24,764 nucleotides of DNA from a virus. Below the pieces are notes generated by a model that saw only the letters and a list, made by a program, of their open reading frames with translations, did not search any database and was not told the DNA's origin. The position numbers and the translations under genes are program-made. Where the stretch lies: positions 1 through 24,764 of the IMG/VR virus record IMGVR_UViG_3300045996_002565; one strand, given 5' to 3'. This document shows positions 3 to 19,395 of the stretch, one piece after another; position 1 is the first letter of the stretch, and every line of letters begins with the position of its first letter.

Positions 3-1202
3 TCGCACGGCAACGTCGGTGTCCTGGGCGGTAAGGCGTTCGTCGAGTGCGGTCCGGGTTTCCCGGCCCTGCAGCTCAAGCCGCAGTACCAGCTGGACAG
101 CTTCTACATCGAGGCGTTCCCGGCGGCGGCGGCCGGAGCGACGACCGAGGCCAGCACGGGCATCTGGATCCAGTCGCCGTCGGTGCCGGGCGGAACCGAC
201 ATCGGGTTCCTGTTCGACATGGTCAACAACGTGCTGTCGTTGCGGAGCCGTTCCGGCTACTTCGACGGTGACGCCGTCGACCTGGCCTACGATCCGGTCG
301 CGCACGCGTGGCTGCGGCTGCGGATCGTCGGCGGGAACGCCCTGTGGGACACCAGCCCGAACGGGGTGACGTGGACCAACCAGCGCACGGCGACTGCCCC
401 GGCGTGGGTGGTCACCGCGACCGACGTCCGGCTGCTGTTCGAGGCGCACCGCTCGGACGGCACCACGAACCAGGCGTACTTCGACAACCTCAGTGTGTCG
501 TCGGCGACCAGCCAGGTCGCCGCGGCGGCGGACACGCTGGCCCTCAGCGATATTCCCGCGGTGGGAATCTCGCTGCAGTCGTCGGCGGGGGAACCGCTGG
601 CGTTGGCGGACACGCCGACGTCGCTGCGGGCCATCCTGGCGGCGGTCGCGCAGGCGCTGAACCTGGCCGACGCAGCGGGGATCATCGCCGGGCGCGGCCG
701 GGGCGCGGCTGACAGCATCACGCTGGCGGACACCCCGACCCGGCCCGGCAGCGGCCGGGCCCGGACGTCCGCCGACGCGGTGCAGGTGACCGACGCGGCC
801 GACCGGGCGGTGAACCGGGGCCGGGCGGTCCCGGAGGCCGTGCAACTGGCCGACGCGCCGGCACGGCAGTTGTCCCGTGGCCGGGACACCGCCGATGCGG
901 TGGTCCTCGGTAACGGCGTCGCCCGGGGCGCGGTGGTGCACGCCCGGGCGGTACCGGACCTGGTGCAGCTGGTCGACGCCGTCGGCGTGTTCCAGTTCAT
1001 CGCTCCGGCGCTGGCGTTCGACTCGCTGACCCTGAGTCCGTCGGCCGGGCGCCGGGTCGCTGCGGCGCGCGCGGTCACCGACGTGCTCGAGCTGGCCGAC
1101 GAGGTCCAGATCGGGGCGCCGCCGCCGATCGCGCACAACCACTTCGTCGAGATGACCGTGACGGCCGGGGTGGTCGAGTACACCGCCGGTCCGGGGATCT
1201 GA
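3..1202 (+). CDS. Lectin-like, repeat-rich virion structural protein (5' end outside window)
   Basis: The frame is open from the first complete codon at base 3, so the true start lies upstream; the ATG/GTG codons inside are not credible starts because coding continues before them. The visible part is 399 residues. The first ~175 residues look like an all-beta carbohydrate-binding (concanavalin/LamG-like) domain, with alternating hydrophobic/aromatic strands and the phrase NQAYFDNLSV typical of the last strand of such domains. Then come about ten 20-21-residue repeats (bases 528-1121), then a short tail ending at a TGA. The gene sits just upstream of the head-tail connector genes, where a capsid or capsid-decoration gene normally lies. 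A capsid-attached fibre or decoration protein is therefore inferred; a misplaced minor tail protein is the alternative. The structural role is fairly likely, the exact role is not. Confidence 0.6.
   Translation, partial: SHGNVGVLGGKAFVECGPGFPALQLKPQYQLDSFYIEAFPAAAAGATTEASTGIWIQSPSVPGGTDIGFLFDMVNNVLSLRSRSGYFDGDAVDLAYDPVAHAWLRLRIVGGNALWDTSPNGVTWTNQRTATAPAWVVTATDVRLLFEAHRSDGTTNQAYFDNLSVSSATSQVAAAADTLALSDIPAVGISLQSSAGEPLALADTPTSLRAILAAVAQALNLADAAGIIAGRGRGAADSITLADTPTRPGSGRARTSADAVQVTDAADRAVNRGRAVPEAVQLADAPARQLSRGRDTADAVVLGNGVARGAVVHARAVPDLVQLVDAVGVFQFIAPALAFDSLTLSPSAGRRVAAARAVTDVLELADEVQIGAPPPIAHNHFVEMTVTAGVVEYTAGPGI
528..1121 (+). repeat. About ten tandem 20-21-residue protein repeats
   Basis: Read in the frame of the first gene, this stretch encodes a degenerate unit with consensus [A/P][D/E]x(V/L)xLxDxxxRxxxRGRA. 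Examples are ADSITLADTPTRP, PEAVQLADAPARQ and TDVLELADEV. Spacing is regular at 20-21 residues, and the nucleotide copies are diverged. Such short periodic units with a conserved L-x-D core suggest a beta-solenoid or fibrous stalk, but this is inference. Confidence 0.75.
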
Positions 1203-5934: not shown

Positions 5935-8900
5935 ATGGCCGCCAAGACGTACAGCGCAGGCACTGCCTGGCTTCAGGTGGTGCCGTCGTTCCGGGACGTC
6001 GAGGACGCGCTGGGTCAGGAGGCGGCCAAGCTCGGTAAGCAGATCGAGAAGACCCTCGGCGGGGCGCTGCCCAAGGGGATGGCCGAGGGTGCCCGGCGGA
6101 CCCGCAGCGAGGCCGAGAAGGCCGGAACGACGTACGGCGGGAACTTCGGGAAGACCGCGGTCCGGCAGATCGAGGCGGCGTGGAAGGCCCTGCCCGAGCC
6201 GACGCTGAAGATGAACAAGTTCGACCAGCAGGTGCAGCAGGTCCGTAAGCAGCTGCGGTCGCTGTACGGCGACGCCCTGGCCGGCAACATCGACGAGAGC
6301 CGCCTGATCTCAGGGGTGGAGTCTGCCGCCGACCGGCTGCGGTTCCTGCAGGGCAACGCCAGGGGCGCCCAGAACTTCTTCAACACCCGAGACGCGGGCC
6401 GGGCCCTGGAGTCGTTCCTCGACATCGCGGATGACGCTGCCCGTAAGGGCGCGCAGGCCGGCGCCGGGTTCGGTGGTGCGTTCGCCGACCAGATGCAGCG
6501 CACGATCGAGGATGCGATCTCCTCGCTGCCGGCGTTCCCGATCCGGGCCAACGGCAGGGAGGCCCGGGACGAGATCGCGCGGATCCGTGACGAGCTCGTC
6601 CGGCTGTCCGCCAGGACCATCGGTGTCGACGTCGACCCGGGCCAGGCGTTCGCCGCCCTGACGCGTATCCGTGCGCAGCTGGCGGAGCTGTCGGCGCGGG
6701 AGTACGACGTCGACGTCGAGATCAAGATGGCGTCGGATGTGGCGGGCGGGAAGATCGGCCGGGCGCTGGGTGAGGACGCCCGGCGGCAGGGCGACCAGGC
6801 CGGCGCGGCGTTCGTGGGCGCGTTCGACGCGCACCTCAAGACGTCGCTGGCCAGTGCCATCCAGGCGATCCCGGACATCACGCTGACCGCCGACATGAGC
6901 GACGCGCAGCGGCTGCTCGGCGTCCTGCGGGCGCAGTTGCAGGAACTCAGCGAGAAGACGATCAACGTCGACATCGACGCTACCGACGCGTACGGGGAGT
7001 TCCTGCGGCTGCACGCCGCGCTGCGGGACCTGGAAGCGCAGGACGTCGAGCTGGACGTGCGGGTCAACGCGGCCAGCGCGGCGGACGGCATGGCCCGCCT
7101 GGCGAACGAGACCGACGAGGCGTCTCGGTCGATGCGCGACATGGACGGCAACGCCAAGCTGACGATCTCCCGCCTGGGGATCATAATCGGCCTGAGCGCG
7201 TCGTTCGGCTCGGTGTTCGTGCCCGGCGCGCTGGCCGCCGCGGCCGCGGTCGGCACGATCGGCACGCTCGCGCTGGGCTCGGTCGCCGGCGTCGGCGTGC
7301 TCGCGCTGGGACTCAACGGGATCAGCGACGCCGTGGGCGCGCTGAACAAGGCCGACCAGGACGCGGACAAGACTGCCCGGTCGCTGTCGCAGGCGCACAA
7401 CGCCGTCCGTAAGGCGGCCGACGGCGTGGCCACGGCGGAAGCCAACCTGGGCCGCACCCGCGAGCAGGTCAACGAGTCCGCGGCCGACGCTGCCCGCCGG
7501 GTGGAAAAGGCTGAGGAGGCGGTGGCCGACGCCCGCCGTAAGGCGGCCCGGGAGGCGCGGGACGCCGCCCGGGACATCGTCGACGCGCAGCGGTCTGTCA
7601 CCGACGCGGAGGAAGACGCCGTCGAGGTCCGTAAGGGCCTGAACGAGGCCTACAAGGAGGCCGCGCGAAACCTTGAAGATCTCAAGTCGAAGCAGGAGAA
7701 CAACGCGCTTGACCAGCGCAAAGCCACGACGGAGATCCTTAAGGCCAAGGAAGAACTCGACAAGATCATCAACAACCCTCGGGCGACCGAGGTCGAGCGG
7801 CGCACCGCGCGGGAGACGTACGACGAGCGGGTCCAGCAACTCAAGGACCTGCAGCTGGAGGGCAAGCAGCTCGGCCAGGACCTGGCGGACGCGAACAAGA
7901 AGGGCCTCGAAGGCAGCGACGAGGTAGTCGCCGTCCGGAAGAGGATCGCTGACGCCGACGACAGGGTCCGGGCCGCGCAGGAGCGGCTCTCGCGCGCGCA
8001 GGAGCGGGCGGCCGAGCGGCAGGCGGACTCCAACGAGCGGATCGCTGACGCTCAGGAGCAGGTAGCTGAGGCGCAGCGGGCCCAGGCCCGTCAGGCCCGG
8101 GACGGTGCGTACCAGATCCAGCAGGCCAGTAAGGGCGTGCGGGATGCCCGGCTCGCCGAGCGGGACGCCACCGAGGCGCTGGGCGTCGCCGGCGGCGAGG
8201 CGATCCGCAACCTCGAGAAGTCCATGGACTCGCTGTCGCCGGCCGGCCGCCGGTTCGCGAAGTTCCTGTTCGGGCTCAAGGACGAGGTCATCGGTCTGCG
8301 GGACGCCGCGCAGGAGAACCTCCTGCCGGGCCTGCAGGAGGCGATCACGATGGGCCTTCCGGCGCTGCCAGCGCTGGAGGAGTTCATCGGCAAGGTCGCC
8401 CGCAAGGTCGGTGACCTGGCCGTCCAGTCGGCGAAGGCGTTCGGCGGCAGCACGTGGCAGCGGTTCTTCGACTACGTCGACCAGACCGCGGTCCCGTCTC
8501 TGCAGACCGTCTTCGACATCGGCTCGGACGTTGCCGAGGGGATGGTGGCGCTGTACCTGGCGCTGACCCCGTTCAACTCGCAGGTCGGTGGTGGCCTGAC
8601 CAAGCTGGCTCAGGACTTCGCCACCTGGGCGAAGGAGCTGGACCGGTCGCAGGGCTACCGGGACTTCCTGGAGTACGTCGACGAGCACGGCCCTGAGGTC
8701 GTCGAGCTGCTCGGCAACTTCGGTGTCGCGCTGGTCAACATCGTCAAGGCGGCGATGCCGCTCGGCGCGATCATGCTGGACGTCACGAACGCCATCCTGG
8801 AGTTCGTCGACGCGATCCCCGGCCCGATCCTGACCACGCTGGTCACCACGCTGGGGCTGGTCGCGCTCGGCATCCTGGGCATCTCGGCCGCGATCCGGGT

Positions 8901-11235
8901 CGGGAAGTTCAAGCGGGAGCTCAGCGACATCTTCGGGCCGCCGGCTCAGAAGATGGTCCAGACGTACGCCATCGACACCGGCCGGGCCACGACCGAGACC
9001 GGCAAGTTCGGTAAGGCCATGGCCACCGCGGGGGGCGCGGCGGAGAAGGCCCGCGGCAAGTTCAAGAACGCCGGGTCGAGCCTGGCCGGCATCGTGGACT
9101 TCGCCACCGGCCCGGTCGGTCTGAGCATCGCCGCGGTCACCGCGTACATCGGCGCCTTCGGGCAGAAGACTGCGGAGCAGAAGGCCAGGGTTGAGACCCT
9201 GTCCAACGCTCTCGGGGCGCTGAACGACGAGTTCCGGGATCTGCGGGCGGAGGGCAAGACCGCCGGCGATGCCGCCGACCTGGCGTTCAAGAAGGCGGTC
9301 CAGAGCAACCCGAAGTTGCAGGAGGCCGTTAAGACCCTGACCGCGATGGGCGTGTCGGTCGAGGAGCTGATCAGGGCGTCGACGAGCGGCGACCCGTCGG
9401 TGCTGGTGAAGAAGCTCAACGACGAGATCGAGCGGCAGCAGCAGCTGACTGTCGACGCCAAGAACAAGGGCGGCGACAAGGAGCAGTACGAGAACGCCAA
9501 GCGGCGCATCATCCAGCTGACCGACATGCGGGACGCGGTGATCGCCAACTCCAACGCGATCGGCCTGCAGGCGGACGCGACCCGGATCCTCAACCAGCAG
9601 ACCACTCAGGCGGTCGCGCTGGAGAACTACCGGCGCGAGCACCCGTACGCGACGCCGGCTGAGATCCAGGCCCAGACCGATGCGTACACCCGGAACTCCG
9701 ACCGGGTGAACGTCCTGACGGACCTGGTCGCGGCGTACAGCACCGGCCAGAACGACGCGGGGGCCAAGGCCGCCGCGTTGAAGAACGCGATCGACCTGCA
9801 GACCGGGTCGTTGATCGCGGCCGAGGAGGCCGGGGAGGCGTGGAACTCCCAGCTGCTCAGCCTGAGCGACTCGGTCAAGGCGAACGGCACCACGCTGGAC
9901 GCCAACACCCGGGAGGGCCTGTCCAACCGCGACGCCATCCAGGCGGCGGCGAAGGCGGCCCGCGACTTCTACCTCGAGGAGATCGCGTCCGGTAAGCCGA
10001 TCGAGAAGGTCACCGGTCTGCACAAGGACCGGATCACCCAGCTCAAGGCGGAGGCGCAGCGGCTCGGGATCGCCAGCACCGAGACGGACAGGTTGATCGA
10101 CCTGTACGGCGACGTGCCGGAGGACGTCAAGACGCTCTACAAGACCGACGGGTTCGACAAGGTCTACAACGAGCTGTCGCAGCTCAAGTTCATCCAGGAG
10201 GCCCTGAACAAGGGCTGGACGATCGAGCGGGCCAAGAAGGAGTGGTCGAAGCTCCGGGAGACCAGCCTGACTCCGGGCCCGACGATGGGCCCGCCGAAGA
10301 AGGCCGACGGCGGCCGGATCACCGGGCCGGGCACCGGCACGTCCGACGACGTGCTGATGTACGGCTCGAACGGCGAGTGGGTGCACCGCGCCGCGGCGGT
10401 GGGCTACTACGGCGACGACTTCATGTCGGCGATCAACAACATGGAGATCCCGAAGGAGTGGCTGCCGGGGTTCTCGACCGGCGGGAAGGTCGGCGGCGGC
10501 GACGGGGCCAGCCAGATCCCCGGGTTCGCCAAGGGCGGCAAGATCCTCAACTGGGATGCGGTCGTACCGGTCGGTAAGACCCTCATCCCGGCGATCGAAG
10601 ACCTCGCCAACGCGATCGGCGGGTTCGGCGGCAGCGGCGACCTCGGCGGCGCCGGCGGCGATCGGGGCTGGCGCTGGCAGATGAAGGTGCTCCGGGACAC
10701 GTTTCCGGGACTGGACCTGTACTCCGGTTTCCGTAAGAACTCCTACACCTCCAGCGGTTCGCTGTCGTGGCACTCCCGCGACGGCGGCCGGGCCGTGGAC
10801 ATCCCGCCCAGGCAGGACGTCTTCGACTTCATCCACAACAAGTACGGCAAGAACACCAAGGAGCTGATCTGGGGCGGTGACCCGAACCGGAACATCTACC
10901 GGGGCGACCATCACCGGTTCAGCGACTCCCTGCTGTACCGCCACGGCCCTTACAAGGGCAAGCGGGGGCCGTCGCCACACGTCCACTGGGCGTTCGACGA
11001 GGGCGGCTGGATGATGCCGGGGATGCCGAGCATGAACCTGCTCCGCGAACCGGAGCCCGTCCTGACGCCGTGGCAGTGGGACGCGATCGAGAACTTCGTG
11101 AACCAGGGCATGGCCGGTGGCGGTAAGGGCGATACGTACAACTTCGAGTTCGCCGACACCACCCTCACACCGGATCGCCTCAGCGCGATCCAGCAGCGGC
11201 AGGACGCCCTCGCGCGCGTGGGTCGTCCCCGCTAG
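5935..11235 (+). CDS. Tape measure protein with C-terminal M15-like peptidase domain
   Basis: The protein is 1766 aa, ATG at 5935 after AGAAGGGGGG. It is the longest gene here and sets tail length; at the usual ~0.15 nm per residue it predicts a tail near 260 nm. N-terminal residues ~70-377 carry repeated ~85-residue modules. Hydrophobic segments fall at ~410-465, ~942-990 and ~1051-1079, and a long Ala/Glu/Arg/Lys coiled coil spans ~478-752. Residues ~1579-1690 look like an M15-type zinc peptidase: WRWQMKVLRDTFPG, SGFRKNSYTSS, SxHxxDGGRAVD (H1613, D1622), and HVHW (H1682, H1684). That domain probably opens peptidoglycan during DNA entry. The chaperone genes lie directly upstream and the distal tail gene downstream. 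A less GC-rich patch lies near residues 575-621. Confidence 0.9.
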   Translation: MAAKTYSAGTAWLQVVPSFRDVEDALGQEAAKLGKQIEKTLGGALPKGMAEGARRTRSEAEKAGTTYGGNFGKTAVRQIEAAWKALPEPTLKMNKFDQQVQQVRKQLRSLYGDALAGNIDESRLISGVESAADRLRFLQGNARGAQNFFNTRDAGRALESFLDIADDAARKGAQAGAGFGGAFADQMQRTIEDAISSLPAFPIRANGREARDEIARIRDELVRLSARTIGVDVDPGQAFAALTRIRAQLAELSAREYDVDVEIKMASDVAGGKIGRALGEDARRQGDQAGAAFVGAFDAHLKTSLASAIQAIPDITLTADMSDAQRLLGVLRAQLQELSEKTINVDIDATDAYGEFLRLHAALRDLEAQDVELDVRVNAASAADGMARLANETDEASRSMRDMDGNAKLTISRLGIIIGLSASFGSVFVPGALAAAAAVGTIGTLALGSVAGVGVLALGLNGISDAVGALNKADQDADKTARSLSQAHNAVRKAADGVATAEANLGRTREQVNESAADAARRVEKAEEAVADARRKAAREARDAARDIVDAQRSVTDAEEDAVEVRKGLNEAYKEAARNLEDLKSKQENNALDQRKATTEILKAKEELDKIINNPRATEVERRTARETYDERVQQLKDLQLEGKQLGQDLADANKKGLEGSDEVVAVRKRIADADDRVRAAQERLSRAQERAAERQADSNERIADAQEQVAEAQRAQARQARDGAYQIQQASKGVRDARLAERDATEALGVAGGEAIRNLEKSMDSLSPAGRRFAKFLFGLKDEVIGLRDAAQENLLPGLQEAITMGLPALPALEEFIGKVARKVGDLAVQSAKAFGGSTWQRFFDYVDQTAVPSLQTVFDIGSDVAEGMVALYLALTPFNSQVGGGLTKLAQDFATWAKELDRSQGYRDFLEYVDEHGPEVVELLGNFGVALVNIVKAAMPLGAIMLDVTNAILEFVDAIPGPILTTLVTTLGLVALGILGISAAIRVGKFKRELSDIFGPPAQKMVQTYAIDTGRATTETGKFGKAMATAGGAAEKARGKFKNAGSSLAGIVDFATGPVGLSIAAVTAYIGAFGQKTAEQKARVETLSNALGALNDEFRDLRAEGKTAGDAADLAFKKAVQSNPKLQEAVKTLTAMGVSVEELIRASTSGDPSVLVKKLNDEIERQQQLTVDAKNKGGDKEQYENAKRRIIQLTDMRDAVIANSNAIGLQADATRILNQQTTQAVALENYRREHPYATPAEIQAQTDAYTRNSDRVNVLTDLVAAYSTGQNDAGAKAAALKNAIDLQTGSLIAAEEAGEAWNSQLLSLSDSVKANGTTLDANTREGLSNRDAIQAAAKAARDFYLEEIASGKPIEKVTGLHKDRITQLKAEAQRLGIASTETDRLIDLYGDVPEDVKTLYKTDGFDKVYNELSQLKFIQEALNKGWTIERAKKEWSKLRETSLTPGPTMGPPKKADGGRITGPGTGTSDDVLMYGSNGEWVHRAAAVGYYGDDFMSAINNMEIPKEWLPGFSTGGKVGGGDGASQIPGFAKGGKILNWDAVVPVGKTLIPAIEDLANAIGGFGGSGDLGGAGGDRGWRWQMKVLRDTFPGLDLYSGFRKNSYTSSGSLSWHSRDGGRAVDIPPRQDVFDFIHNKYGKNTKELIWGGDPNRNIYRGDHHRFSDSLLYRHGPYKGKRGPSPHVHWAFDEGGWMMPGMPSMNLLREPEPVLTPWQWDAIENFVNQGMAGGGKGDTYNFEFADTTLTPDRLSAIQQRQDALARVGRPR

Positions 11236-11308: not shown

Positions 11309-12304
11309 GTGCCGATTCTCGCTGGCGGGCTGGCCACCGCACCGGTGATCCCCGACGAGGAGATCTTCCAGCCCGTGTGGTCCGAGGACCTGGGCACGAT
11401 GTCGGCCACGTGGATCGACCCGGACGGCGTCGAGTGGCCGCTGAGCAACCCGGACCTGGGCTGGTTCACCATGGACGGCCCGGCCGGGTGGATGGCCGGC
11501 CAGCTGGAGCTCATCACCGACCCGCTGCCCCGCGGCGGCGAGCAGGTGCGCTACGTCAGGACGAAGTCGCGCCGGGTGCAGTGGCCGCTCTACATCGGTG
11601 GGGACACCCACGAGGAGTTCGTCGACCGGGTCCGGCGCCTCATCCGGGCGTTCACCAAGACCACCCAGCGAGGCGATACCGGGTGGCTGCGGGTCGCCCG
11701 GCCGAACGGCCGTTACCGGCAGATCGCCTGCTACTACGAAGAGGGGCTGGAGGGCGCCGCCGGCGAGCACCACCTGTGGGCCCGGCCGGTCATCACCCTG
11801 TTCTGCCCGGACGGTTTCTGGTCCGGGGACGTGCCCGTCGTCGCAGACCGGGAGTTCGAGGCGGCGTCGGCCGACCCGGATGAGGTCGCCAGCTTCTACG
11901 AGCCGTTCATCAACGTCACCAGCTCCCGGGTCGTCTCCGGCGACGGCGACGGGTCGGTGCCGTCGACGACGATCGCCAACCCCGGCGACGTCGAGGCGTG
12001 GCCGGTGTGGACCATCACCGGGCCGATGACCTCGCTGACCGCGGTCAACCTGACCACCGGCGCCCGGTTCACCCTGACCTACACGCTGCTGGCCGGGCAG
12101 ACGATCACCATCACCACGAACCGGCCGACCGTGCGGGGGCCGGCCGGGCAGAACCTGTCGCGCTACATCGACTGGCTCAACCCGCTCGGGACCGAGCTGT
12201 GGCCGCTGGTCGACGGCAACAACGAGATCAGCTTCGTCGCGCTGGGCGCCGGAACCGGCACCCGGGTGCGGATGGCGTTCACCCCCCGGTACGAGACCGC
12301 ATGA
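11309..12304 (+). CDS. Distal tail protein (Dit-like, Sipho_tail family)
   Basis: The protein is 331 aa, GTG at 11309. The N-terminal half has features of distal tail proteins: WIDPDGVEWPLSNPDLGW, a GGEQVRYVRTKSRRVQWPLY strand pair, EEFVDRVRRLIRAF, and GRYRQIACYYEEGLEG. This is the belt domain that forms a hexameric ring at the tail tip. Residues ~205-331 are a second beta-sandwich (AWPVWTITGPMTSLTAVNLTTG, then FTLTYTLLAGQTITITTNRP), comparable to the galectin-like domain of Dit. It sits just after the tape measure gene, the standard Dit position. It connects the tube to the hub and to receptor-binding parts. Confidence 0.75.
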   Translation: MPILAGGLATAPVIPDEEIFQPVWSEDLGTMSATWIDPDGVEWPLSNPDLGWFTMDGPAGWMAGQLELITDPLPRGGEQVRYVRTKSRRVQWPLYIGGDTHEEFVDRVRRLIRAFTKTTQRGDTGWLRVARPNGRYRQIACYYEEGLEGAAGEHHLWARPVITLFCPDGFWSGDVPVVADREFEAASADPDEVASFYEPFINVTSSRVVSGDGDGSVPSTTIANPGDVEAWPVWTITGPMTSLTAVNLTTGARFTLTYTLLAGQTITITTNRPTVRGPAGQNLSRYIDWLNPLGTELWPLVDGNNEISFVALGAGTGTRVRMAFTPRYETA

Positions 12305-12320
12305 CCACGGAGGTGATCCG

Positions 12321-13595
12321 ATGACCGCGCCGCTGCCGGTGACCGGCCCTGCGGCCGAGAGGCTGCTCCGCGCCGACTACAACATCCTGGTCACCGACCA
12401 GGACCTGAACGTCATCGGCGACCCGCTGCACGAGTGGAGCTCGTTGCAGGCGACGCTGCGGTGGAAGGAGCCCGGCTCCGGGCAGATCGTCATCCCGGCC
12501 CACCCTTACATCCGGGAGCAGCTGGTGCCCGGCTGCCGGATCGTGGTCATCCGTAAGGTCCTCGGCCAGTCCAGCGTGCTGCTGGCCGGCCCGATGGAAG
12601 AGAAGCTGCGCGAGCGGGCCGACAACGGGGAGAACGGCGGCGTCGGGAAGCTGACCGTGACGTTCGCCGACGACATGGCGTGGCTGGCGGCGCGGCTGGC
12701 GTACCCGGACCCGACCAAGACCCCGGAGACGCAGACCACCGACTGGTGGGTCTACAGCGGGAACCCTGAGCAGGGCATGTTGCAGCTGGTCAACACGCAG
12801 GCCGGCCCGGCGGCGCTGGCGGCGCGGCGGGTGCCGAAGCTGACCGTGGCGCCGTTCTCGGGGATCTCCGGGACGGGCACGGTCGCGCTGGGCCCGACCG
12901 TGGACGTGGACCTGCCCCGCGAACGGCTGGAGACGCTGACCGAGGTGCTCCGCAAGATCTGCACCCTCGGCGCCGGCACGGGCGGGCACCCGGACTCGCT
13001 GGGCTTCCGGGTCCGGCAGACCGTCGTCGGTGGCCAGAACGTGCTGCTGTTCGAGCCGATCCGCGCCCGGAACCTCTCCGGAGACGTCCACTTTTCGTTC
13101 GGTATGGGCAACTTGAAGTATTACTCCTTCCAGGAGTCCGCGCCGACCCTGACCCACCCGATCGTCGGCGGTCAGGGTGAGGGCGCGGACCGCTTCATCA
13201 AGGAGTTCCCCACCACCGACACCGCCCAGCTGGCGTGGGGCCGGTGGGAGGGCTACGTCCCCCGCCCCGGCACCACCTCGAACGCAGAGATGCAGGACGC
13301 CGCGACGCAGGCACTCAAGGAGGCCGGGCAGTCCGCGCGGCTCGCCTCCAACGCCGCCGACACCGTCGACCAGCGGTTCGGCGTGCACTACGGCGTCGGG
13401 GACCTCGTCTCGATCGAGCTGGACCTCGGCGAGTACATCGCCGCCCCCGTCCAGACCGTCAACCTGCAGGCGTTCCCCACCGCGGGTGAGGTCGTCGGCA
13501 CCACGATCGGCGACCAGGCCGCTCGGTACGACTCGAAGTGGATCCGCCAGATGCGGCTCATGGATCAGCGGATCGGCCGGATCGAGCGCGGCTGA
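12321..13595 (+). CDS. Minor tail / hub protein, ReqiPepy6 Gp37-like
   Basis: The protein is 424 aa, ATG at 12321 with GGAGGTGA upstream and a 16-base gap from the Dit gene. It matches the Siphovirus ReqiPepy6 Gp37-like family as I remember it: early YNILVTDQDLNVIGDPLHEW, the strand phrase LRWKEPGSGQIVIPA, LVPGCRIVVIRK, and a central HFSFGMGNLKYYSFQESAP followed by FGVHYGVGDLVSIELDLGEY near the C-terminus. Members sit where Tal/gp27-like hub proteins lie and form the tail-tip platform. No enzymatic motif is visible. The stretch around 13085-13130, encoding the FSFGMGNLKYY core, is locally less GC-rich. Confidence 0.75.
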   Translation: MTAPLPVTGPAAERLLRADYNILVTDQDLNVIGDPLHEWSSLQATLRWKEPGSGQIVIPAHPYIREQLVPGCRIVVIRKVLGQSSVLLAGPMEEKLRERADNGENGGVGKLTVTFADDMAWLAARLAYPDPTKTPETQTTDWWVYSGNPEQGMLQLVNTQAGPAALAARRVPKLTVAPFSGISGTGTVALGPTVDVDLPRERLETLTEVLRKICTLGAGTGGHPDSLGFRVRQTVVGGQNVLLFEPIRARNLSGDVHFSFGMGNLKYYSFQESAPTLTHPIVGGQGEGADRFIKEFPTTDTAQLAWGRWEGYVPRPGTTSNAEMQDAATQALKEAGQSARLASNAADTVDQRFGVHYGVGDLVSIELDLGEYIAAPVQTVNLQAFPTAGEVVGTTIGDQAARYDSKWIRQMRLMDQRIGRIERG

Positions 13596-14595: not shown

Positions 14596-14610
14596 GGGAG
14601 GTCCGACAAG

Positions 14611-16425
14611 ATGCGTCCCTTCTTCGGCGGTGGCCCGGAAGACGTCTACCTGGTCACCGACACCGAGAACGACCTGCAGGCCGGTGGCGGTTTCCCCGCA
14701 CTGTTCTACGAGGGGGAGGAGCCGGAGGCGCCGCAGATCACCGATCTGCAGGACATCGACGGCGACCCGATCACCTTCATCCTGACCAGCGACGGAACCG
14801 ACGGGCACGCCAAGGGCCAGATCCCGATGTTCCAGGGCTCCGACGAGCTCTGGCAGATGTGGTGCTCGGTCAACGGCTCGCCGCGGTTCCTGCTGACCGG
14901 CAAGGTCGGCCCGGCCGTCGGGCAGATGCGCCAAGAGGTCGCGTCGATCCTGGCCGGCGGCGCGGGCGGTGTCCAGACCGCGCTGGCCGGCCTGACCGAC
15001 GTCGACGGCGCCGCCGTCAGCAGCGCCCCGGAGGGCGCGGCCCTGATCCGGCGGTCCGGCGGGGTGTGGTCGACCACGACCGCACCGACGAACTACCAGC
15101 TGACCGGACCGCAGGCGATCCCGCTGCCGTTCGGGGCGGCCGTCGACGGCGAGCGCCGCCGGTGGCGTGCGCAGGCGGCCGGCACGGACCGGACCGCGAC
15201 GTTCGACGCCGGGTTCCGCACCTCCGACCGGGTTCCGGCCCGGGCCATCGTCATCCCCGCCGGGCAGGTGCTGATGGCAGAGGCGGAGTATTCGTCGCTG
15301 CTGACGTCGTGGGTGCTGACCAACGCGGTCATCACCACCGGTGTCGCCGGAACGGGCCCGGCCGCCGGCCTGTCCGCCGGTGTCGACACCGCGCTGACCA
15401 CCGCGCAGACGTTCAGCCGCACCGCGACCGAGCCGGAAGGCGCGACGATCACCGCCCGCGAGTGGAAGATCCTGGCCGGGCCGCTCGGTGTCGGCATGGT
15501 CGTCGGGTCCACCGCGGCGGTCACGTGGAAGCCGGGCTCGTCGACGAACGGCTCCAACGACATCCGGAACCCCACGTTCCAGGAGATCGCCCTGCAGATG
15601 ACGTCGACGTCCGACCGCACCAGCACGACCTGGACGGCCGGTTACGCGACGATCGCGACCGACCCGGGCGCGCAGCTGGGCTACGTCGGTGGGATCGCCG
15701 GGTTCTCCTCGGCGACCGGGTCGATGCTGCAGCTGATCCAGCAGTACGCCATCGAGAAGACGTCCGGGAACACCCTGTCGTCGTACATCCCCGGCCTGCA
15801 GACGTGCGTCGACGTCGGCAAGGGCTCCGGCGCGGCGGCCGCGGCGACCGCCAACCTGGGCTCGGCGTTCCTCACGGCGTGGGCGAACGCGGCGAACACC
15901 GACGCGGTGTTCCGGAAGGTCCAGCGCGACTTCCGTAAGGCCCTCTGGTGGGACGACGCGCTCACGCAGGCGCTGGCTGACGGCGTCGGCCCGCTCGGCC
16001 TGGCCATCTACTACGACATCATGGCCCAGCACGGCCCGGGCACCGTCAACGACTCGTTCGGCGGCATCCTGTCCTACGTCCGGCAGCGCAACACCAAGCC
16101 GGCGTCCGGCGGGAACATGGCCACCTGGCTCAACGCGATCGTCGACCGGAGGAACACCATCCTCGAGGGACGCGGCGACACGGCGTCGGCGGTCAGCGGC
16201 CGGGTGGCGTACCACCGGATCCAGATCAACGGCGGCACGGTCGGCGGCGTGGCCCAGGCCGCGAACCTGAACCTGGTCGCACCGATCAAGTGGTCGAACA
16301 ACGGCAACGTCTACACCATCTCCGCCCGGCCGGACCCGGCCGCGGACTCGGTGATCGGTGAGTACGTGCTGCGCTACACCGCGACCGGAGCCGGCACCGA
16401 CGACGTCATCGTCACGGTCGCCTGA
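14611..16425 (+). CDS. Tail-tip protein with GH46 chitosanase-like domain
   Basis: The protein is 604 aa, ATG at 14611 with GGGAGG upstream. Residues 1-~100 resemble an actinophage minor-tail attachment module (DIDGDPITFILTSDGTDG, GQIPMFQGSDELWQMW). A linker and a beta region follow to ~310. Residues ~320-590 align with GH46 chitosanases recalled from memory (Streptomyces N174): QEIALQM, GYVGGIAGFSSATGSM, FRKVQRDFRKALWWDDALTQ, DGVGPLGLAIYYDIMAQHGPG, DSFGGI and NLNLVAPIKW. By that alignment the acid Glu22 becomes D335, Asp40 becomes A354, Thr45 becomes V359 and Asp57 becomes S371. It may therefore bind an aminosugar polymer rather than cut it, or use other residues. It is the last tail gene, a typical receptor-binding or depolymerase position. 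Confidence 0.8.
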   Translation: MRPFFGGGPEDVYLVTDTENDLQAGGGFPALFYEGEEPEAPQITDLQDIDGDPITFILTSDGTDGHAKGQIPMFQGSDELWQMWCSVNGSPRFLLTGKVGPAVGQMRQEVASILAGGAGGVQTALAGLTDVDGAAVSSAPEGAALIRRSGGVWSTTTAPTNYQLTGPQAIPLPFGAAVDGERRRWRAQAAGTDRTATFDAGFRTSDRVPARAIVIPAGQVLMAEAEYSSLLTSWVLTNAVITTGVAGTGPAAGLSAGVDTALTTAQTFSRTATEPEGATITAREWKILAGPLGVGMVVGSTAAVTWKPGSSTNGSNDIRNPTFQEIALQMTSTSDRTSTTWTAGYATIATDPGAQLGYVGGIAGFSSATGSMLQLIQQYAIEKTSGNTLSSYIPGLQTCVDVGKGSGAAAAATANLGSAFLTAWANAANTDAVFRKVQRDFRKALWWDDALTQALADGVGPLGLAIYYDIMAQHGPGTVNDSFGGILSYVRQRNTKPASGGNMATWLNAIVDRRNTILEGRGDTASAVSGRVAYHRIQINGGTVGGVAQAANLNLVAPIKWSNNGNVYTISARPDPAADSVIGEYVLRYTATGAGTDDVIVTVA

Positions 16426-18492: not shown

Positions 18493-19395
18493 ATGCGCGT
18501 TCTCTGGCTACCGGCGGTCCTGCGGGCCGCCGGCCTGACGGTGCACGAGGTGTCCGGGTGGAGGACCCGCGGCAACGACTCGTTCGGCCCGGTCCGGGGC
18601 ATCACCTGCCACCACACCGCCGGGTCGCGGACCAGCACGGTCTCCGGTGAGATCAACACCCTGCTCCACGGGTCGAACAGTGCGCCGGCGCCGATCGCCC
18701 AGCTGTTCCTGGCCCGTAACGGCGACTGGTACGTCGTCGCGTCCGGGCTCTGCTACCACAACAAGCAGGGCTGGGCCGGCCCGAACGAGGGCTACGGCAA
18801 CGACAACCTGCTGGGCATCGAGGCGCAGCACTCCGGCGGCAGCGAGCCGTGGACCGACGAGCAGTACGGCAGCTACGTCAGGGGTGTCGCCGCCCTTGTC
18901 AAGCACGACGCGCCCGGCTGGGACGTCTCGGTGTCCCGGGTTGCCGGGCACAAGGAGCACCAGCCCGGCGCGAAGTCGGACCCGACGTTCAACATGGACA
19001 CCTTCCGCGCCCGCGTTCTGGGCCAGATCCGAGATGGAGATGACGACATGGCCACGATCACCCAGGAGGACTTCAACGCGCGGATGGACGCGTGGTGGAA
19101 CGCCCGGATGAGCCCGTCCGCCAAGGACAACCCGCAGCGTGCCGCGCTGCGGGTCGCCCCGTGGCAGCAGACCGTGGGCGCCACGGACCGGTCGACGCAC
19201 AACGTGCTGTTCGGCGACATGTACGCCCTGCTCCAGCAGGCGTCCGCCGACGACACCGACGAGGCCACGATCGCGAAGCTGGTCCTGGCCGGCCTCGGCG
19301 GCCCGGACAGCGACCCGCAGCAGCTCGCCGCGGCCCTGCGGACGGTGCTCGGCGACGCCGCGCCGGAGGTCGGCCGGATCCTCGCGTCCGCGTAA
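18493..19395 (+). CDS. Endolysin, N-acetylmuramoyl-L-alanine amidase (Amidase_2/PGRP type)
   Basis: The protein is 300 aa, ATG at 18493 after GAGGGGAGAG. Residues ~30-175 form the amidase domain: ITCHHTAGS (H40/H41 at the first zinc site), LFLARNGDWYVVASG, NLLGIEAQHSG (E110), and AGHKEHQPGAKSDP (H153, with K161 and D163 as the conserved C-terminal active-site cluster). It cleaves the bond between N-acetylmuramic acid and L-alanine in peptidoglycan. Residues ~186-300 (ATITQEDFNARMDAWWNARM, then Ala/Leu-rich helices) form a separate C-terminal region found in several actinophage lysins and probably wall-binding. A ribosome-binding site and ATG lie exactly at the domain boundary. No signal peptide is seen, so release depends on a holin. 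Confidence 0.9.
   Translation: MRVLWLPAVLRAAGLTVHEVSGWRTRGNDSFGPVRGITCHHTAGSRTSTVSGEINTLLHGSNSAPAPIAQLFLARNGDWYVVASGLCYHNKQGWAGPNEGYGNDNLLGIEAQHSGGSEPWTDEQYGSYVRGVAALVKHDAPGWDVSVSRVAGHKEHQPGAKSDPTFNMDTFRARVLGQIRDGDDDMATITQEDFNARMDAWWNARMSPSAKDNPQRAALRVAPWQQTVGATDRSTHNVLFGDMYALLQQASADDTDEATIAKLVLAGLGGPDSDPQQLAAALRTVLGDAAPEVGRILASA
19036..19050 (+). promoter_or_regulatory. Internal ribosome-binding site and start codon within the endolysin gene
   Basis: GGAGATGA begins at 19036 and an in-frame ATG lies at 19048-19050, eight bases after GGAG. Initiation here would make a 115-residue C-terminal domain without the amidase. It falls in the Asp/Gly-rich linker (GDGDDD) between the domains. Internal starts that yield free binding domains are known for some clostridial and enterococcal endolysins. 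Confidence 0.45.

Follow-up and report, generated by a model that had tools for sequence, protein, structure and literature searches.

An apparently inactive GH46 chitosanase-fold domain in a tail-region protein of a probable actinobacteriophage

In GH46 enzymes the general acid is invariably a glutamate, and Asp57 does not vary within clusters A–D (PMC4663542). Every substitution of Arg42 lowers chitosanase activity considerably (PMC3848431). The chitosanase of Janthinobacterium 4239 is active, yet it has no alignable Asp40 or Arg42 (PMC2835661, PMC4663542), and Glu36 and Thr45 were proposed as stand-ins for Asp40 in this enzyme (PMC2835661). Ten phage lytic proteins with GH46 are recorded in PhaLP (PMC8310338); hence, the presence of GH46 in phages was already known. 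The soil-virus chitosanase whose function has been characterised belongs to GH75, whose fold is unrelated (PMC9485262). The GH46 proteins of the Streptomyces phages Rimavirus (gp20/21), Ponzi (gp58) and Scarif are annotated as chitosanase or glycoside hydrolase. Comparison of sequences and models suggests that the phage GH46 domain described here is inactive, and no earlier description of an inactive phage GH46 was found in a literature search.

The window, i.e., the whole stretch of DNA that was analysed, is a single uncultivated contig of 24.8 kb (24,764 nucleotides). The gene under study starts with ATG and encodes a modular tail-region protein of 604 residues, which is matched by the phrog_20173 profile (E = 3e-91). 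Its product was 41% identical to a protein of the IMG/VR contig L016 over 619 columns and 49% identical to Ponzi gp58 over 453 columns. The gene is preceded by those for the tape measure (5935–11235), the Dit protein (11309–12304), a Gp37-like hub (12321–13595) and a further minor structural protein, and a matching neighbourhood surrounds the GH46 gene of Ponzi. The product is probably a host-facing tail protein of an actinobacteriophage, the host being probably among the soil actinobacteria, and the gene order suggests that the protein is incorporated into the virion. The hints of a receptor-binding role are two, namely this gene order and the phrog_27064 match of the N-terminal module. The features of the locus are given in Table 1. 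A separate endolysin gene is present, so lysis may proceed independently of the GH46 domain.

Table 1. Features of the GH46 gene and its surroundings (window positions; reference residues numbered as in CsnN174).
Feature	Position	Strand	Basis
Ribosome-binding site GGGAGG	14596..14601	+	5' of ATG, read in sequence
ORF of tail-region protein, 604 aa	14611..16425	+	Homologous to L016 protein and Ponzi gp58
N-terminal module, residues 1-143	14611..15039	+	phrog_27064, E = 1.4e-12; aligns with L016
Middle beta-rich module, residues ~161-244	15091..15342	+	Common to Ponzi, L011 and L016; model strands of low confidence
Ig/PKD-like beta-sandwich, first half, residues 256-314	15376..15552	+	Beta strands in model
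GH46 chitosanase-fold domain, residues 317-571, probably nested in Ig/PKD-like sandwich	15559..16323	+	Pfam, phmmer, AlphaFold, Foldseek
D335 at general-acid position Glu22	15613..15615	+	Alignments; near end of helix 321-336 in model
A354 at general-base position Asp40	15670..15672	+	Alignments
L356 at Arg42	15676..15678	+	Alignments
V359 at Thr45, water-positioning	15685..15687	+	Alignments
S371 at Asp57, GlcN recognition at subsite -2	15721..15723	+	Alignments; role from PMC4663542
Ig/PKD-like sandwich, second half, residues 573-604	16327..16422	+	Strands 583-592 and 595-603 in model
Separate endolysin gene, Amidase_2	18493..19395	+	Pfam, E = 1.5e-13; 3' of GH46 gene

The N-terminal module is the probable virion-attachment part, and the middle module is shared with proteins of the IMG/VR contigs L011 and L016. 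The flanking beta strands suggest that the GH46 domain is inserted into an Ig/PKD-like sandwich. When the halves of two homologues were put together, Big_9/PKD profiles gave sub-threshold matches across the join, and with the two halves from the window itself joined, these profiles returned nothing. In the contig L031 (1885–6711), a GH16-like domain apparently lies inside a PKD/Ig-like domain, with VNAGSDATVAPG... preceding and GTYTLEYFATNSQGTSTDQVVVTV following it, and this insertion uses a different Ig/PKD loop than the GH46 domain of the window. Ig/PKD domains may thus be carriers of inserted enzymes. Furthermore, a partial first ORF of the window (3–1202, phrog_14065) includes a module of ~160 residues that is 36–38% identical to the C-termini of Ponzi gp58 and of the L016 GH46 protein, which argues that this module has been traded between structural genes.

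The GH46 assignment was supported at the level of both profile and structure. Pfam PF01374 matched the protein with E = 6.3e-38 and 131 bits, far above the cut-off of 27, and phmmer returned the N174 chitosanase 1chk (E = 6.8e-39) and 4qwp, 4olt and 4ily (E ≤ 3e-30). Weak matches of the domain to VgrG3-like and endolysin-type proteins were also obtained. The full-length AlphaFold model, from 7 sequences, was weak at the active site; the model of residues 245–604, from an alignment of 12 sequences, was good (pLDDT 88.8, pTM 0.85). According to Foldseek, the latter has the two-lobed alpha-helical GH46 fold, with TM values of 0.82–0.93 to cluster A structures (0.93 to 4olt, with an rmsd of 2.1; 0.85 to 1chk, the CsnN174 structure). 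The model of the Ig and GH46 parts together gave a TMq of 0.86 to a TieDye protein. A preliminary description of this DNA had placed the GH46-like region at residues ~320–590; the GH46 fold is assigned here to residues ~317–571.

Residues were mapped by pairwise HMMER, MAFFT alignments and a tree alignment. All three returned the substitutions of Glu22, Asp40, Thr45 and Asp57 that the preliminary description had listed. Further changes that it had overlooked are Arg42 to L356, Asn23 to R336, Tyr34 to T347, Glu36 to T350 and Tyr122 to W446. A single-residue insertion at A349 lies to the left of D351; counting from the anchor G357–Y358, A354 therefore corresponds to Asp40 and D351 to Asp37. In the model D335 lies where the first GH46 helix (321–336) ends, at the place described for the general acid (PMC4663542). 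Hence, among the features that mark an active chitosanase, the glutamate acid, the base with its arginine, the water-positioning Thr/Ser and the aspartate for GlcN at subsite -2 are all replaced, and the Arg-Asp-Arg network (Asp145, Arg190, Arg205) is present as D469, R514 and R531. Trp28, Asp37, Trp101, His150 and Trp227 are likewise retained, as are Thr55, Pro152 and the cleft glycines 46, 47 and 50. The net charge of the cleft is 0, versus -4 to -6 in all other domains compared. For the OU01 enzyme, the general-base position is Ala in the substrate co-crystal 4qwp and Asp in 4olt; the window has the same change. A local frameshift or assembly error was considered as the source of the substitutions and rejected: the frame is open over 604 codons with the flanking motif in register, neither of the remaining reading frames there holds an intact motif, and several of the substitutions require at least two base changes.

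Homologues were drawn from 30 Streptomyces phage records, nine of them examined in detail, and from IMG/VR. Glu22, Asn23, Tyr34, Asp40, Arg42, Thr45, Asp57 and Tyr122 were kept in 20 of 20 other GH46 domains (15 phage tail-type and 5 cellular-type, representing ~10 independent lineages, since some of these phages are closely related), and none of the eight was kept in the window. The comparison with homologous phage proteins proposed earlier thus sets the window apart from every phage tail-type domain in the set. Of the columns that did not vary across 19 other domains, the window departed from 8 of 11 in the cleft versus 5 of 34 elsewhere (Fisher p = 7e-4). In the tree, the window domain fell inside an actinophage PKD–GH46 clade of intact-looking relatives (support 97/90); hence, the loss of the active site is derived. 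Its end branch was 0.93, compared with 0.004–0.37 for the other clade members, and the relative-rate excess on this branch was mostly in cleft columns. Judged from these alignments, the cleft-focused change points to a fold preserved after catalysis was lost, not to general decay. Relatives sharing the substitutions were sought in a viral collection: the single-protein scan returned none, and the alignment and DNA-pattern scans returned intact relatives only. Scans of genome contigs confirmed none, and their two pattern matches were probably due to chance.

The literature on Arg42, Glu22 and Asp57, combined with the loss of both proposed Asp40 stand-ins, indicates that the window domain is most likely no longer a chitosanase. 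We consider it probable that the domain is a pseudoenzyme that acts in adhesion or in the structure of the tail. The tree and the intact relatives show that the ancestors of the domain carried a complete GH46 active site. In the window lineage Asp40 and its partner Arg42, Thr45, Asp57 and the residues of subsite +1 were replaced, and the core and the Arg-Asp-Arg network were left unchanged. Most likely, the remodelled, uncharged cleft or the domain surface now works at the tail tip as a module for glycan adhesion or for structure, and its ligand would be a wall polymer that is neutral or anionic, not one of glucosamine. The earlier proposal that the fold but not the active site was kept is strongly supported by the TM range and by cleft-concentrated substitutions that none of the 20 relatives has. 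The narrower version, a GH46 pseudoenzyme turned lectin whose cleft was rebuilt from acidic to neutral with loss of catalysis and which adheres to a different actinobacterial wall polymer, is offered tentatively, at about one chance in three. Several points count against the pseudoenzyme reading. It comes from one uncultivated sequence, whose substitutions recur in none of the relatives found, and the Janthinobacterium 4239 enzyme is active despite having no alignable Asp40 or Arg42. Moreover, D335 retains a carboxyl group and R531, its arginine partner, is present as well, and an acid-only mechanism is conceivable. Residual or altered hydrolysis may occur through D335 alone.

The domain could on this account still be a hydrolase, with altered chemistry and substrate. 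D335 would supply the acid, the water would be activated with no base set aside for it, a mechanism known from goose-type lysozymes, and peptidoglycan or another wall glycan would fit into the uncharged cleft. The retained D335 and Arg-Asp-Arg network, the lysozyme-superfamily fold with its weak VgrG3-like and endolysin-type matches, and the record of an active GH46 enzyme without an identifiable Asp40 (PMC2835661) speak for such an enzyme. We nevertheless regard it as unlikely, because the general acid is elsewhere always Glu (PMC4663542), the positions of both stand-ins hold T350 and V359, Arg42 is lost, and no new cleft carboxylate is evident in alignments of the domain. D351 was rejected as a new catalytic aspartate. 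The preliminary description had suggested that it might pair with D335; D351 is, however, the conserved Asp37, shared by 19 of the 20 sequences compared, every one of which has the ordinary catalytic pair. Less probable than a surviving hydrolase is decay, whereby the activity was no longer needed and the domain became a passive spacer in the tail protein. The long end branch would fit such relaxation, and nothing points to a ligand; but the frame is intact, 29 of the 34 invariant non-cleft positions are kept, and the non-cleft columns are mostly without significant acceleration, whereas plain decay would not be expected to spare the core while hitting the cleft. The preliminary description had favoured a receptor binder of glucosamine polymers, and Thr55, His150, Pro152 and the cleft glycines are indeed kept. 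Nevertheless, Asp57, which sets the GlcN preference at subsite -2, is now Ser, Arg42, Tyr34 and Tyr122 are gone, and the net cleft charge, about -5 in the relatives, is 0 here, an unfavourable setting for a polycationic ligand. Binding of poly-glucosamine is therefore rated the most improbable of these alternatives, and the pseudoenzyme in adhesion or tail structure remains the preferred reading.

Other GH46 domains of phages are likewise unlike chitosanases in places. Around subsite -1, the intact ones have Trp in place of Glu197 and Tyr, Leu or Phe in place of His200; therefore, even these domains may not cut chitosan. Moreover, GH46 occurs in very large multi-enzyme ORFs of phage contigs (L026:1879–6057, L031:1885–6711, L035:1147–6462 and L027:2095–4650), where its partners, in varying combinations, are alginate-lyase-2, GH16-like, chondroitinase-B-like and BSP peptidase domains. 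The GH46 copy at L027:2791–3630 ends before Arg190 and Arg205 become alignable and is followed by Big_7 and an alginate-lyase-2 domain; its activity is doubtful.

Annotation pipelines would label the window gene a chitosanase, and soil-virus chitosanases are commonly taken as auxiliary metabolic genes. Since the gene lies in a tail module and the activity is probably lost, such a label would be mistaken, and so would the ecological interpretation. Within one architecture, intact GH46 domains and this apparently dead one form a natural pair for the question of cutting versus binding in actinophage tails, and for asking which wall polymer the tail enzymes of actinophages meet. If the lectin reading is true, actinophages can move from cutting a coat to holding it with one domain.

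Cluster E of GH46 resembles the window, according to its description, in the absence of Asp57 and in that activity was not demonstrated in the paper, but its members are bacterial multimodular proteins in which the catalytic residues are mostly kept (PMC4663542). Cluster A (CsnN174, 1chk; OU01, 4olt/4qwp; SACTE_5457, 4ily) shares with the window the whole fold, at 30–36% identity in structural alignments, and Trp28, Trp101, Trp227, the Asp145–Arg190–Arg205 network and His150. It differs in that its members are secreted enzymes, whereas the window domain is part of a tail-module protein in which the acid has changed from Glu to Asp, the base, its Arg, the water-positioning Thr and the GlcN-specific Asp are gone, and the cleft is neutral. 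Retention of an enzyme fold after loss of the catalytic residues, with a binding or other role, is seen in the GH18 chitinase-like lectins and in alpha-lactalbumin, which, unlike the window domain, belong to unrelated families and occur outside phage tails. Also close to the window protein are the Streptomyces phage tail-module proteins of Rimavirus, Ponzi and Scarif (phrog_20173), in which GH46 is likewise nested in an Ig/PKD-like domain at 46–51% identity. Ponzi gp58 additionally has the middle module, and its gene, as in the window, follows the minor tail genes, whereas the Rimavirus and Scarif genes lie between the major tail protein and the tape measure and have another N-terminal module. 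In contrast to the window domain, all of these phage proteins keep every catalytic residue.
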